Positions 3,452 to 9,297 of a stretch of DNA of 24,994 nucleotides are shown piece by piece. Each line of letters begins with the position of its first letter. Position 1 is the first letter of the stretch. Origin of the DNA: a virus; the IMG/VR virus record IMGVR_UViG_3300010397_000084, positions 1-24,994 of that record; one strand, given 5' to 3'. Under the pieces are notes generated by a model, which saw only the letters and a program-made list of their open reading frames with translations, was not told the origin of the DNA and ran no database searches. Made by a program: the position numbers and the translations under genes.

Positions 3452-3892
3452 TTAATACCGGTCCAGGACGTCTTTGGAAAACATGGCGGCGCCGGCCGAG
3501 ACGAGCAGAGTTTCCGACGGCGTTTCGGCGGCCGCTGTTTCCAGTTCGGCGGCGCCGAGCTTGACGTCGCCTTTCTGAATCGCCTGCAGAGTCTTGACTG
3601 CAGCTGCGTAACGTTCACCGATGGTTTTCGGCATCTCGAATGTCGGCTTGAGACTGTAAAAATCATAGGCATAGATATCAAGAGCCAGCTTCGGGATCAG
3701 GTCCGGTACCGGATCAAGCGGCAGCTTCAGCTTGCCGCGCAGAAAGCCGTCGATGAAGGCATCGCCGTCGGCGATAACGCCGGCAGCGGTCTCTTCATCG
3801 ATGACGCCGAGATTGTTATCATCCGTCAGCGAAATCAGTGTCGCTTCGGAAACTCTCAGCTTCTTGACCTTGTCGAGGGTGTTGTAAGGCAT
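3452..3892 (-). CDS. Mu gp36-like protein (DUF1320-type), head completion/connector
   Basis: 146 residues from the ATG at 3890-3892; a longer in-frame extension overlaps the preceding gene and is not protein-like. It reads MPYNTLDKVKKLRVSEATLI..., then IDGFLRGKLKLPLDPVPDLI and LALDIYAYDFY. This matches the gp36 family (short helices, a DGFLRGRY-like core, late helices) found between capsid and tail genes of Mu-like phages, where it is thought to be a head-tail connector. It starts one base after the stop of the secreted gene upstream, so the two are co-translated. Confidence 0.75.
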   Translation of the reverse strand: MPYNTLDKVKKLRVSEATLISLTDDNNLGVIDEETAAGVIADGDAFIDGFLRGKLKLPLDPVPDLIPKLALDIYAYDFYSLKPTFEMPKTIGERYAAAVKTLQAIQKGDVKLGAAELETAAAETPSETLLVSAGAAMFSKDVLDRY

Positions 3893-3893
3893 A

Positions 3894-4337
3894 TTATTGC
3901 TGCCGCCGGATACAGGTAGAAAAGGTTCGTTTTTTGGGCGACGAGTAGACCTTCTGCACGGCACGTTTGTAAGTGCTGCCTCCGCTATTCGTCATTCTGA
4001 AGGTGTGCCCTATAGCCATCATGACACCGTCCACCTCATACATGACCATGGCGTCCCGCGGGTTTGCCAGCTGGGTGGCGGCAGAGCTGTAAATGGTAAA
4101 CACATCGGTCTCGTAAGCGTGGTAACCGTCGATTGAGCTGTATTGCCCCTGGATAGCCCCTTTGGTGGCAGCCGTAGTGACGCAGCCCGACTTCAACTTT
4201 GCCGGGGCGATGGCGGTGACGTTCTGGATGGGGACATGGGGACTTGACGAATCGTAGAGCATCTTGCTGCCAGCCATGGCGGCGGTGGCCATGGATAAGA
4301 CGAGCAAGACAGACAGGGAAAGAATGCGGCATTTCAT
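3894..4337 (-). CDS. Secreted protein of unknown function inserted in the head-tail operon
   Basis: 147 residues; ATG at 4335-4337 preceded by CAGGAGG. It has a clear Sec signal peptide (MKCRILSLSVLLVLSMATAA, then MAG with an A-M-A cleavage site near residue 22). The mature part is rich in Ser/Thr/Ala/Tyr with two cysteines (SGCVTT and FSTCIRR) and ends in a basic tail. I do not recognise the family. A secreted protein between gp35-like and gp36-like genes is not standard for Mu-like phages, so it may be cargo (surface modification, superinfection exclusion) or an exported virion part. A GC-rich inverted repeat lies immediately upstream (4352-4376). Confidence 0.7.
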   Translation of the reverse strand: MKCRILSLSVLLVLSMATAAMAGSKMLYDSSSPHVPIQNVTAIAPAKLKSGCVTTAATKGAIQGQYSSIDGYHAYETDVFTIYSSAATQLANPRDAMVMYEVDGVMMAIGHTFRMTNSGGSTYKRAVQKVYSSPKKRTFSTCIRRQQ

Positions 4338-6363: not shown

Positions 6364-6816
6364 TTATTTTGTCGGCATCACGTAGGACACCATTTCCTCG
6401 GCCAACTTCTCATCGGCAGCAAAATCGGCGCTTTTCTTGTCGTCTTCCTTCTTCGGATTAACCATCTCCTTGAAGAGCGGGTGGGCGGCAAAATCCGAGA
6501 TGAAGGTGCGGAACCAATCACCGGGGCTTTCCTTCTTGCCGGCAGAGAATTCATAATCGCCACCCTGCTCATCCAGGGCAGCCATGAAATCCACCAGACC
6601 TTTTTCCTTCCAGGCCGGGAGGATCTTGCCGTCCTTGATCCCCTGGTCGACGAAGGAAACAATATCCGCTTTCTTCGCCTGCTTCTGTGCCGCGGAGAAG
6701 TCGGCTTCGCCCTTTTCGGCCTTGGACTTGAAATCGTTCCGCTCTGTTACCAGCTTCGCGTTCTCGTCCTTTACTGTCTTGAGTTCATCTTCCAACTGCT
6801 TTAAACGTGCATCCAT
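6364..6816 (-). CDS. Nested scaffold protein (Mu gpZ-like), internal start in protease gene
   Basis: An in-frame ATG at 6814-6816 (codon 142 of the protease gene) is preceded by GAGGGGG with 8 nt spacing, a strong RBS inside a gene. Starting there gives a 150-residue product made only of the coiled-coil scaffold part, beginning MDARLKQLEDELKTV. Mu and lambda (Nu3) make scaffold from a nested start in the protease gene in just this way. Inferred from the RBS and the family precedent. Confidence 0.65.
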   Translation of the reverse strand: MDARLKQLEDELKTVKDENAKLVTERNDFKSKAEKGEADFSAAQKQAKKADIVSFVDQGIKDGKILPAWKEKGLVDFMAALDEQGGDYEFSAGKKESPGDWFRTFISDFAAHPLFKEMVNPKKEDDKKSADFAADEKLAEEMVSYVMPTK

Positions 6817-7239
6817 AGAATTTACCCCCTCGCTGTAGTCGTAATCGTTGGCTTCAATGTCCGCTGAGAACTGAATATCTTTAAGCCCGGCAATGGCCGG
6901 TGGCGCTGCGCCGAGAAATGCCACATGGCCGAGCGTTCCATCCTGGTGAATTCTGACGGACCGCTTCTTGTAATGGCCGTCTTGAACCCACTTTGAAAAC
7001 TCGGGAGTTACCTGCTTAAATTTCGCCAGGAGCACCTCACCCACCCGTTTCAACCCATCGACCCAGCCGTAAGCAGGAGCGTTGTCGCCTTTCGGATGGC
7101 CGATGACGATCGGCGCCTCGAAGTCGGCAGGATTGTAAGAGCTGACCATCTTGTCCAGGTCGGCTTTTGTCCAGGTCCGGGTGCGGCCCTGGCTGTCGGT
7201 ATTGGTGCCTGCCTTGAAAACCTCTACCCATCCGTCCAT
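6364..7239 (-). CDS. Prohead protease gpI (Mu-like), scaffold-protease precursor
   Basis: 291 residues; ATG at 7237-7239 preceded by AAAAGGAGGAATAACC. The N-terminal half is the Mu gpI-type protease region (VFKAGTNTDSQGRTRTWTKA, then DFEAPIVIGHPKGDNAPAYG with His in GHP, and KKRSVRIHQDG...HVAFLGAAPPA with Ser in the RSV motif). The C-terminal half (from about 142) is a charged coiled coil, LKQLEDELKTVKDENAKLV, typical of scaffold. gpI cleaves scaffold and itself during capsid maturation. It has its own upstream intergenic region with a candidate late promoter. Confidence 0.85.
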   Translation of the reverse strand: MDGWVEVFKAGTNTDSQGRTRTWTKADLDKMVSSYNPADFEAPIVIGHPKGDNAPAYGWVDGLKRVGEVLLAKFKQVTPEFSKWVQDGHYKKRSVRIHQDGTLGHVAFLGAAPPAIAGLKDIQFSADIEANDYDYSEGVNSMDARLKQLEDELKTVKDENAKLVTERNDFKSKAEKGEADFSAAQKQAKKADIVSFVDQGIKDGKILPAWKEKGLVDFMAALDEQGGDYEFSAGKKESPGDWFRTFISDFAAHPLFKEMVNPKKEDDKKSADFAADEKLAEEMVSYVMPTK

Positions 7240-7258
7240 GGTTATTCCTCCTTTTACC

Positions 7259-7277
7259 TACGGTGCATTGCACCGTA
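7259..7277. repeat. Perfect 9-bp-arm palindrome at the protease leader
   Basis: TACGGTGCA-T-TGCACCGTA: 9-bp arms around one base, just upstream of the AAGGAGG of the protease gene. On the minus strand the left arm starts with TACGGT, which falls at the -10 position relative to the dyad at 7303-7316. It could be an operator overlapping the start of transcription, or a leader hairpin. Confidence 0.7.
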
Positions 7278-7302
7278 CCTTATCCCCTCGGGTCACTTCT
7301 AT

Positions 7303-7316
7303 TTGAAGCAGTTCAA
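7303..7316 (-). promoter_or_regulatory. Candidate late-promoter activator dyad upstream of the protease gene
   Basis: Minus strand TTGAACTGCTTCAA: 5-bp arms TTGAA/TTCAA around CTGC. The near-identical TTGAACCGCTTCAA lies at 18659-18672. A -10-like hexamer (TACGGT) follows at almost the same distance as TAAATT follows the other copy (25 and 24 bp after the dyad). That puts the dyad centre near -44, where Mu Mor and C activators bind. The region 7240-7379 has no gene and starts the capsid unit. Inferred from symmetry, recurrence and spacing. Confidence 0.5.
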
Positions 7317-7379
7317 TTTTTATCAGCGGGCTGTTTCAGAACCGTCTTTAAACCCTCTTTAAATTTCCTCACAATCGAT

Positions 7380-7895
7380 TCATCCGGTCCAGGTCGGGGG
7401 TGTATACCCCGGAACAAACGTCGGGCAAATTTGGGGCCTGAAATCAGTAAAATCAAAAGTCTGAATGGAAAAGAATTTAAGCCCATCTTTTAAAGTGAAA
7501 ATCTCCAATCGATCGCAGTCACCGCCAAGGATCAACATCAGCGGAATCGGTGCACGTGCTGCAGCATCTGCAGCTATGTTTTTCAAGCACGACACATCGA
7601 GATCCGAGGGAAAAGCAGGGCCACTTGGATGTGTATGCCAATCACCGAGATAGGTAAGCCTGCCATCGAATGCGTCGTAGAACAGACCAATTTGCTCAGC
7701 CTGCCAATTTGCGTCAGGCTCGAACCTGACAGGTGAATGTACGGCAGCAGGTCCAGGACCGATAATATGGGTGACGACCGCTTCATGTTCTGCCGACCAG
7801 TAGCCTAAAAGATTCCCGCCGGTTTCCTTGGGATACGATCTCCTCCCTTCAGTAACCAGCGCCGAAAGGGCTTTTTTATCGAGCCAGCACTTCAT
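7380..7895 (-). CDS. Stand-alone JAMM/MPN (JAB) metallopeptidase, probable cargo gene
   Basis: 171 residues. The complete JAMM zinc motif is visible: Glu24 in KETGGNLLGY, then His87-x-His89-Pro...Ser97-x-x-Asp100 in GDWHTHPSGPAFPSDLD. The ETGG and WHTHP forms resemble bacterial JAB proteins of the Mov34/MPN/PAD-1 type, including the Cap3-like deconjugases of CBASS and ICE-borne relatives. Such enzymes cleave isopeptide bonds to ubiquitin-like modifiers. It is not the lambda gpK tail type, because no NlpC/P60 domain is fused and it lies in the head region. Its ATG overlaps the gpG stop (ATGA), but GC content looks lower than its neighbours. Defence or anti-defence cargo is my inference; a role in head processing is the alternative. 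Confidence 0.8.
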   Translation of the reverse strand: MKCWLDKKALSALVTEGRRSYPKETGGNLLGYWSAEHEAVVTHIIGPGPAAVHSPVRFEPDANWQAEQIGLFYDAFDGRLTYLGDWHTHPSGPAFPSDLDVSCLKNIAADAAARAPIPLMLILGGDCDRLEIFTLKDGLKFFSIQTFDFTDFRPQICPTFVPGYTPPTWTG

Positions 7896-8473
7896 AAGGC
7901 GCCACCGCTTATGAATGCCGCTGCTGCCGTCTCTATTCTCCCGATCCCGCCGCCGCTAACCTTCATGAACTCGCGCTTCGGCATGTTGATCGTGTACCCG
8001 GCCGAACTGTATTTTCTCTCGGCGGCGCGCTTGTGGCTGCTCTTGGCGAAGACGGCCAGGTTCGCCTTCAGACCTTCGGTCCCCTGGCGCAGCAGGTTCC
8101 CCTTGGCATCGGTCCGGAGGCGCACCGAGGATTCAAAAGGTTTACGGGTAATCGGCCCGCCGAAGTTGTGAATGGCGGCGTAGATCTTGTTGGTGAATAC
8201 TCCGGAAGCGTTGCCGGCGACAAACTCCTGGATGGAGTTGACCAGCTGGGCCGATTCGATCAGGGTCTGGCCGCCGTGCTTCTTGACCCGCTCCGACTCC
8301 GGCCACTCGGGATCCCGGCCGCCGGCGGCGAAGTTCTCTTCCACCTCGTCGTGCATGATCCCGGCAATATCCAGCTGCAGCGGATGAATGTTGCGGCCGC
8401 GAGCGATCATTTCGCCGATGATGCGCCTGGCATTTTCGAGTCCCTGGAGAGATATTTTGATCCGATCAGCCAT
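7892..8473 (-). CDS. Virion morphogenesis protein (Mu gpG-like, tail completion)
   Basis: 193 residues beginning MADRIKISLQGLENARRIIG. Family features are clear: FAAGGRDPEWPESERVKKHG with a following SAQLVNSIQ, then AAIHNFGGPI and NMPKREFMKVSGGGI near the end. These match phage virion morphogenesis/tail completion proteins (Mu gpG, P2 gpS-like). It overlaps the gpF stop by one base and is followed by the JAMM gene through an ATGA overlap. Confidence 0.85.
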   Translation of the reverse strand: MADRIKISLQGLENARRIIGEMIARGRNIHPLQLDIAGIMHDEVEENFAAGGRDPEWPESERVKKHGGQTLIESAQLVNSIQEFVAGNASGVFTNKIYAAIHNFGGPITRKPFESSVRLRTDAKGNLLRQGTEGLKANLAVFAKSSHKRAAERKYSSAGYTINMPKREFMKVSGGGIGRIETAAAAFISGGAL

Positions 8474-9297
8474 TACCAGAGGCTCCTTATGGCCGGGTCG
8501 TATTTGGCCAGCTGCGGCTGCCAGCGATCCAGGCCGGGGTTGCTGCTCCAGCCGAGATCCGGGGAGACGGTGTATTTCTTGCCGAGATCATCGATGCCCT
8601 GGTAAACGGCAACGCGGCCGGTTTCGCCGTTCGTTCCCGGAATGAGGACATCGTTGAAGGACAGCCCTTTATCCTGCACCCAGACCCCTTCACCGTTCTT
8701 AACCATGTTGACGGCCTGGTCTTGGGTCAGAGCCCGGACCCGACAGCGGCAGCGCCAGCCATTGGGCGGGTAAAAATAGCGCCAGAAGGGGGAGTCGATC
8801 GGGGCGATAGTGCCGTGCAGCGCCCGGTGACTCGGCCGAGTCTTGCTGTCCAGTACCGAGACATACATGAGCATCGGCCGGGCGGCCTTGTTCTCCCACT
8901 GACTCTGCCAGCGGCCGGCCTGATACGAGGTCTGCAGGTTGGCTTCGTAGATGGTCCGGAGGCGGTAGGGTGAGCCGAGAGTGACATTGCGTAGCTCGCC
9001 GGTGGCCTCGTTGAGCACTTCCTGCCGGCCCCACCAGCCGAGCTTCTGGAGCTCCGGAGTGAGTTGCTTCTGGAACGTCTGAAACGTCTCGCCCTTATTG
9101 AGGCTTTGCACCAGCGCATCACGAATGCTCTGCAGCACGTCCAGGCTCGTTGCCTTGGCCACAGTGAATTCGCGGGCATGGGCGCCGTCGAGCATCTCGT
9201 GCCAGTCAAAGCTGATCTTGAACCCCTTGAGCTGCAGGTATTCGATCGCCTTCTCCGGAGTGAGCCCGAACAGGTATGCGAGGTCGAGATCGTTCAT
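8473..9297 (-). CDS. Head morphogenesis protein (Mu gpF-like, SPP1 gp7 family)
   Basis: 274 residues. The N-terminal helical part (LTPEKAIEYLQLKGFKISFD) is followed by RTIYEANLQTSYQAGRWQSQ and a C-terminal SKTRPSHRALHG...IDSPFWRYFYPPNGWRCRCRV. This carries the conserved H-x-x-LHG and NGWRCRC motifs of the Mu gpF/SPP1 gp7 minor head family. Such proteins sit at the portal and are ejected with or organise the DNA. The ATG follows the portal TAG with no gap. Confidence 0.9.
   Translation of the reverse strand: MNDLDLAYLFGLTPEKAIEYLQLKGFKISFDWHEMLDGAHAREFTVAKATSLDVLQSIRDALVQSLNKGETFQTFQKQLTPELQKLGWWGRQEVLNEATGELRNVTLGSPYRLRTIYEANLQTSYQAGRWQSQWENKAARPMLMYVSVLDSKTRPSHRALHGTIAPIDSPFWRYFYPPNGWRCRCRVRALTQDQAVNMVKNGEGVWVQDKGLSFNDVLIPGTNGETGRVAVYQGIDDLGKKYTVSPDLGWSSNPGLDRWQPQLAKYDPAIRSLW

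Follow-up and report, generated by a model that had tools for sequence, protein, structure and literature searches.

The phage record IMGVR_UViG_3300010397_000084, a fragment of about 25 kb (24,994 bases, here called the window), encodes a stand-alone JAMM/Prok-JAB isopeptidase (hereafter JAB) within a Mu-like head operon. Judged from its sequence, JAB is a foreign gene that was inserted cleanly and recently. Both by position and as variable, low-GC cargo, it occupies a known Mu-like anti-defence locus, the slot between gpG and the head maturation protease. We propose that JAB is a moron-like anti-defence isopeptidase descended from the JABs of E2-E1+JAB operons, probably made late, that strips tags attached by the host, the likeliest being a proline-rich peptide ending in R(P/Q)VG. 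Taken as a whole, we give this reading about an even chance.

Location of JAB in the head operon

The operon lies on the minus strand and runs from TerL through portal, F, gpG, JAB, protease I and a decoration protein to the major capsid protein. Its relevant features are:

7380..7895, minus strand: stand-alone JAMM/Prok-JAB isopeptidase gene, 171 aa (motif, Pfam match, alignment, fold model)
7892..8473, minus strand: gpG-like gene (Phage_tail_S; tail completion/Neck1; PF05069, phrog_26)
6364..7239, minus strand: Mu I-like head maturation protease/scaffold gene, which bounds the slot on the other side (PF10123, phrog_976)
8473..9297, minus strand: Mu F-like minor head protein gene, the query for finding relatives
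7433..7891, minus strand: segment of ~460 bp that has no counterpart in contigs L003, L005 and L007 (DNA alignment, GC ~50%, foreign codon usage)
7380..7432, minus strand: 3' end of the JAB ORF, formerly intergenic spacer (AAATTTGCCCGACGTTTGTT...), encoding the low-confidence C-terminal tail, approximately residues 155-171 (spacer identity, pLDDT)
7259..7277, no strand: inverted repeat TACGGTGCATTGCACCGTA shortly 5' of the protease gene (read directly)

As a preliminary description of this DNA had it, JAB sits between gpG and the protease, with gpG upstream and protease I downstream; the gpG stop and JAB start overlap as ATGA. The description also placed a new promoter region after JAB, a claim that was not confirmed: a scan of 7150-8000 for sigma-70-like promoters found no site, and the spacer 3' of JAB is a conserved phage spacer common to relatives. 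This spacer may hold a Mu-type late promoter, a class outside the sigma-70 scan. Dyads related to TACGGTGCATTGCACCGTA are also present in the gpG-protease spacer of L003 (~3580-3602) and L007 (~4180-4203), shortly before the next gene, and it is possible that the conserved dyad is a regulatory or late-promoter element. No HTH gene lies between JAB and the protease.

A complete JAMM motif in a predicted isopeptidase fold

The zinc motif is complete and consists of exactly the residues first described, Glu24, His87-Thr-His89-Pro, Ser97 and Asp100 (H-T-H-x7-S-x2-D). Across an 18-sequence alignment of relatives, E24, G27, Y82, G84, D85, W86, H87, H89, S97 and D100 are invariant. JAB scores 57.4 bits with Pfam Prok-JAB (1.6e-15; cut-off 25), and this match over the cut-off, together with the Glu and the H-x-H-x7-S-x2-D motif, places it among the JAMM/MPN+ metalloproteases. 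No NlpC/P60 or other second domain was found beside the single Prok-JAB domain, again in keeping with the earlier account.

A structure model built from the 18-sequence alignment reached a pLDDT of 86.7 and a pTM of 0.82, the last 12 residues (160-171) lying below a pLDDT of 50; a model built from 2 sequences was uninformative (pLDDT 36). JAB models as a ubiquitin isopeptidase fold with a complete active site, which suggests that it is catalytically active. In a Foldseek search of the PDB, yeast Rpn11 (5u4p) came out on top, followed by the complex of Cap3 and CD-NTase (9ild), and the bacterial Ubl-deubiquitinase complex 8tyx was also among the matches. VIA-align 2, a second look at the same Foldseek matches, placed Rpn11, a Caldiarchaeum Rpn11 homologue, CSN5 and Pyrococcus JAMM1 at the top (Z 18-20); 9ild had a Z of 16.8. 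By sequence, 9ild was the best match of a family-profile search of the PDB (1.7e-24), and the PADLOC JAB model PDLC00890 matched at 1.1e-25. The NCBIfam Cap3 equivalog scored 43.8 bits and did not reach its cut-off of 200, nor did TIGR02256 (ICE_VC0181; 79.1 bits, cut-off 127.6).

Some JAMM proteins, lambda gpK among them, serve in tail assembly. We reject a tail-assembly JAB of the lambda gpK type here for the lack of NlpC/P60 and for the location between gpG and the protease; no tail-assembly JAB stood out in the fold searches, although one could still be among the matches.

A recent insertion between gpG and the protease

The preliminary description judged JAB by eye to be lower in GC than its neighbours, and the numbers bear this out. 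Its GC content is 50.6% against about 59%, with the other head genes at 54-62%, and its GC3 is 48% against 63-80% in the remaining head genes. Of 1000 size-matched stretches, none had a GC content this low, and none a codon usage this deviant.

The closest comparisons are contigs L003, L005 and L007, whose F proteins are 69-76% identical to that of the window and all three of which are without JAB. In L003 and L007 the sequence AAATTTGCCCGAC... lies within ~10 bases after the gpG stop and matches the end of the JAB ORF in the window. The 3' end of JAB shares 40/61 ungapped identities with the L003 spacer (maximum over 500 shuffles, 31), while the L007 spacer diverges from it beyond the first 20 bases. 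It follows that ~460 bp entered between the end of gpG and this spacer, and that JAB acquired its stop and its last ~17 codons from phage spacer DNA.

In a set of 81 further Mu-like contigs carrying F, JAB was missing from every one, which rules it out as a universal head gene and agrees with the variable presence anticipated for a cargo site. The gene is neither universally conserved at this position nor structurally closest to a tail-assembly JAB, the two results that the preliminary description had named as telling against its reading.

The gpG-protease slot in Mu-like phages

The gap from gpG to I is at most 351 bp in all but seven of ~50 contigs having both genes. The seven slots that bear cargo are those of the window, L007, L010, L013, L014, L015 and L067. 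In L007, whose F protein is 70% identical to that of the window, the same interval contains an Acb2/Tad1-hairpin gene (L007:4217-4435, plus strand; PF24729, 5.4e-14) on the protease side of the spacer, a candidate anti-CBASS gene. L010 holds a ferritin remnant. The other cargo comprises a 306-aa protein (L067:6603-7523, plus strand) and a 99-aa protein (L014:7658-7957, plus strand), both without recognised family, a RES-like 308-aa protein that falls under the Pfam cut-off (L015:7678-8604, plus strand) and a 136-aa protein on the minus strand (L013:7644-8054). These four are candidate anti-defence or defence genes.

In phages DMS3, JBD24 and JBD5, the annotated acr genes are found in the stretch from the Neck1/gpG gene to the protease. 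A review likewise puts acr genes in the interval bordered by the gpG homologue and the head protease/scaffold (PMC4704812), and a genomic survey of DMS3-like phages ties the anti-CRISPR region to low GC (PMC4378225). Neither a promoter of its own nor an aca HTH gene, as in acr modules, was detected for JAB. The slot of Shewanella phage MuM16-1 (L179:6253-9526) contains a reverse transcriptase and an HTH regulator along with further ORFs, so the slot may host defence genes too. That of E. coli PhiKM has no annotated gene and that of Klebsiella KP12 a 126-bp ORF only.

Stand-alone JABs in other phages

Single-sequence homologue searches of INPHARED and IMG/VR gave no phage match, unlike a search of IMG/VR phages with the clade alignment, which recovered stand-alone JABs. 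They fall into at least four lineages besides the window, each tightly packed in a late structural operon:

L112/L113: 48% identity, after or next to head-closure Hc3
L114: 43% identity, before and overlapping a baseplate hub gene
L115: 45% identity, between TerL and portal
L116/L117: 38-39% identity, between a head-tail adaptor and the major head protein

No E2-E1 was found in the examined flanks of the L112-L117 JABs. One more JAB of the clade (L166:10596-11087, minus strand) lies near a terminase where a phage-like contig ends, and its nearest neighbour in the tree is the JAB of an S. chiapasense E2-E1 operon. It was not counted among the phage JABs (82 bits, contig edge), as an E2-E1 gene may lie upstream past the edge. 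A 134-aa protein encoded immediately 5' of the L114 JAB and overlapping it (L114:7591-7995, plus strand) resembles a C39/papain-like peptidase by eye and has only a weak match, to phrog_4049.

The phage JABs group with cellular E2-E1-associated JABs (branch support 88/87). Within this clade the window JAB joins L112 and L115 (95/89), and L114 and L116/117 branch elsewhere, a pattern that fits, without proving, several captures or transfers of phage JABs. With a clade profile that included the window JAB itself, members scored at least 118 bits and other JABs (CBASS, 6A and others) at most 78; CBASS-type JABs scored 51-70 and fall outside the window's group in the tree. By clustering, the window JAB belongs to the JAB clade of operons that encode E2-E1 and an R(P/Q)VG peptide. 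We reject a CBASS-specific Cap3 identity in view of the equivalog score and the tree.

Cellular relatives and their proline-rich peptide

The nearest cellular JABs (about 37-46% identity) are carried by plasmids and islands in Lysobacter, Hymenobacter, Arthrobacter, Indioceanicola, Sinorhizobium and Sphingobium. In each case the JAB gene overlaps an E2(Prok-E2_B)-E1(ThiF) fusion gene or comes immediately after it. The E2-E1 proteins form a group of their own, each scoring 154 bits or more with one or other of two clade queries, whereas the other E2-E1 or E1 proteins compared scored below 57 bits. E2+E1/JAB operons of NGR234 appear in rows 6b and 6c of Iyer et al. 2006. Among ORFs of at least 80 aa, only E2-E1 and JAB are common to all eight loci; a CD-NTase is not.

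Immediately 5' of E2-E1, all eight loci have an ORF of 44-61 aa with 23-41% proline that ends RPVG or RQVG, two of the peptides extending past the glycine (RPVGQQ, RPVGR). Two further Sinorhizobium operons, near-copies of L087, have it as well (10/10). The ORFs are:

Plus strand: L002:4129-4272, L084:2992-3168, L085:3063-3209, L086:3146-3316
Plus strand: L087:3090-3224, L088:3032-3217, L089:3042-3227, L183:1590-1724, L184:1572-1718
Minus strand: L110:5471-5608

No such peptide lies upstream in four CBASS-type outgroup operons (0/4), two of which have an annotated nucleotidyltransferase and two an unnamed gene where that would be. L090, which the tree labels with the peptide-bearing group, has no R(P/Q)VG peptide upstream; it was left out of the count, having no annotation and no confirmed intact E2-E1. 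Outside these operons the pattern matched one unrelated-looking ORF in 1.8 Mb (twice, in overlapping loci). The peptides span Bacteroidota, Actinomycetota and Pseudomonadota, and most lack annotation. They match nothing in Pfam or NCBIfam, and a search of mostly open-access literature found no mention of them, a weak sign of novelty.

The analogy of Cap2/CD-NTase and of ubiquitin makes the peptide a natural candidate for the conjugated tag, an unstructured ubiquitin-like modifier, and the residues that follow the glycine in two of the peptides would need JAB-like trimming. From their mobile-element and defence-like neighbourhoods, we infer that the E2-E1+JAB+peptide operons are defence systems. 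It is tempting to speculate on a minimal conjugation system in which E2-E1 would attach a disordered, proline-rich R(P/Q)VG peptide, rather than a folded Ubl or a CD-NTase, as an antiviral tag, and whose deconjugase several phage lineages would have captured independently and express from their structural operons to strip it. We hold this larger scheme tentatively and think it more doubtful than probable.

An E2-E1 partner was sought throughout the 25-kb window and an R(P/Q)VG peptide beside JAB and elsewhere in the window, and neither was found. The phage JAB is solitary, a relative of the E2-E1+peptide system and not part of it.

Proposed role and alternatives

We propose a model in which JAB derives from the lineage of JABs in an E2-E1+JAB operon, was captured from it directly or via other phages, and was put between gpG and the protease as an accessory gene in an anti-defence slot. 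Because the gene overlaps gpG and no promoter or regulator of its own was detected, its product would be made together with the late head proteins. The enzyme would hydrolyse the (iso)peptide bond between a host-made ubiquitin-like tag and its target, and tag removal would coincide with virion protein synthesis. The likeliest tag would be the R(P/Q)VG proline-rich peptide encoded beside E2-E1 in the cellular relatives; judged by descent alone, its conjugates are a more likely target than those of CD-NTase or Bil.

Anti-defence cargo is favoured because the gene is a foreign insert in the acr slot, because L007 has an Acb2-like gene there and because other lineages carry JABs in their structural operons. 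The preliminary description had suggested anti-defence among several roles, and it is the one that we now place first. Against it, proteins made late may miss the time at which some defences act, the slot can also carry cargo of other kinds (the ferritin remnant, RES-like protein, reverse transcriptase and unclassified ORFs), and JAB, unlike DMS3-like acr modules, is without a detected promoter or an aca regulator.

The preliminary description likened JAB to deconjugases of the Cap3 kind. The deconjugase part is supported, since JAB is an isopeptidase-type JAMM whose best structural matches include Rpn11 and Cap3; the CBASS/Cap3 assignment, as it was put, is not. JAB might still mimic Cap3, removing Cap2-made CD-NTase (cGAS-like) conjugates and so blunting type II CBASS. 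Consistent with this are the rank of 9ild in the fold and sequence searches, the PADLOC match, the Acb2-like anti-CBASS gene of L007 in the same interval, and the reversal of conjugation by Cap3 in vivo and in vitro (PMC11153139). We nonetheless consider it unlikely, given 43.8 bits where the equivalog demands 200, CBASS-type JABs that score 51-70 bits against at least 118 for the clade and fall outside the group, and nearest cellular operons without CD-NTase. Moreover, CBASS immunity sometimes requires Cap3 (PMC11153139), and extra Cap3 therefore need not benefit a phage. Position in late structural operons, common to five of five phage lineages, would also suit a late-made JAB that strips a beta-grasp Ubl, Bil-type or other, from tail or head proteins during assembly, and 8tyx is among the fold matches. 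Bil reportedly tags a tail protein, as Hor et al. are said to have described in 2024. This is quite improbable: neither sequence relatives nor the tree link JAB to Bil in a comparison made without a BilC-specific model, and a proline-rich peptide stands where a Ubl gene would be in the nearest operons.

The RES-like and reverse transcriptase genes of other slots look more like defence than anti-defence, and a JAB made from the prophage could regulate a host conjugation system's own JAB or stand in for it, or guard the host from other phages. Such lysogenic-conversion or defence cargo is very unlikely in view of the gpG overlap, the lack of a detected promoter, the late-operon position here and in other phages, and the lack of an E2-E1 partner within the 25-kb fragment. 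Location in a head operon brings to mind a protease for structure or assembly whose substrate would be a head or tail protein of the phage itself; the preliminary description had also entertained head-protein processing. We regard such a protease as the most remote of these readings: relatives with F 69-76% identical do without JAB, its composition is foreign, the gene positions in other phages are four quite different ones, and it lacks NlpC/P60 and matches deubiquitinase-type JAMMs best.

If the anti-defence reading is true, phages counter ubiquitin-like bacterial defences with a deconjugase of their own, in parallel with the deubiquitinases of eukaryotic viruses. The best-known anti-CRISPR locus would be tied to counter-defence against protein conjugation, and attention would be drawn to an E2-E1+JAB system that lacks a CD-NTase and has an unusual peptide as its candidate modifier. 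A literature search with few subscription papers within its scope found no report of a phage-encoded deconjugase for counter-defence.

Comparison with known systems

JAB shares its gpG homologue-protease interval with the acr-aca locus of DMS3/JBD phages, and both hold low-GC, variable, recently acquired cargo; JAB, however, is a predicted deconjugation enzyme rather than a CRISPR inhibitor and has no aca and no detected promoter. Sponges of the Acb2/Tad1 type are represented in the same interval by the L007 gene, which lies at the protease side of the spacer, whereas JAB lies at the gpG side. Acb2 binds cyclic nucleotides; JAB would act on protein conjugates. Lambda gpK and the tail JAB-NlpC proteins are likewise phage-encoded members of the Prok-JAB superfamily, but JAB is without NlpC/P60, lies outside a tail-tip module and has isopeptidases as its best fold matches.

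CBASS Cap3 resembles JAB in JAMM motif, size, fold (9ild) and stand-alone domain, yet the two are ~25% identical and on different branches, JAB falls short of the equivalog cut-off, the window, a fragment of about 25 kb, shows no Cap2 or CD-NTase partners, and the nearest cellular operons are CD-NTase-free. The closest likeness is to the JABs of the E2-E1+JAB plasmid and island operons, which have the highest cellular identity (about 35-46%), belong to the same clade and share the YLGDWHTHP motif. There the cellular JABs are accompanied by E2-E1 and the R(P/Q)VG peptide gene, whereas the phage copies stand by themselves.
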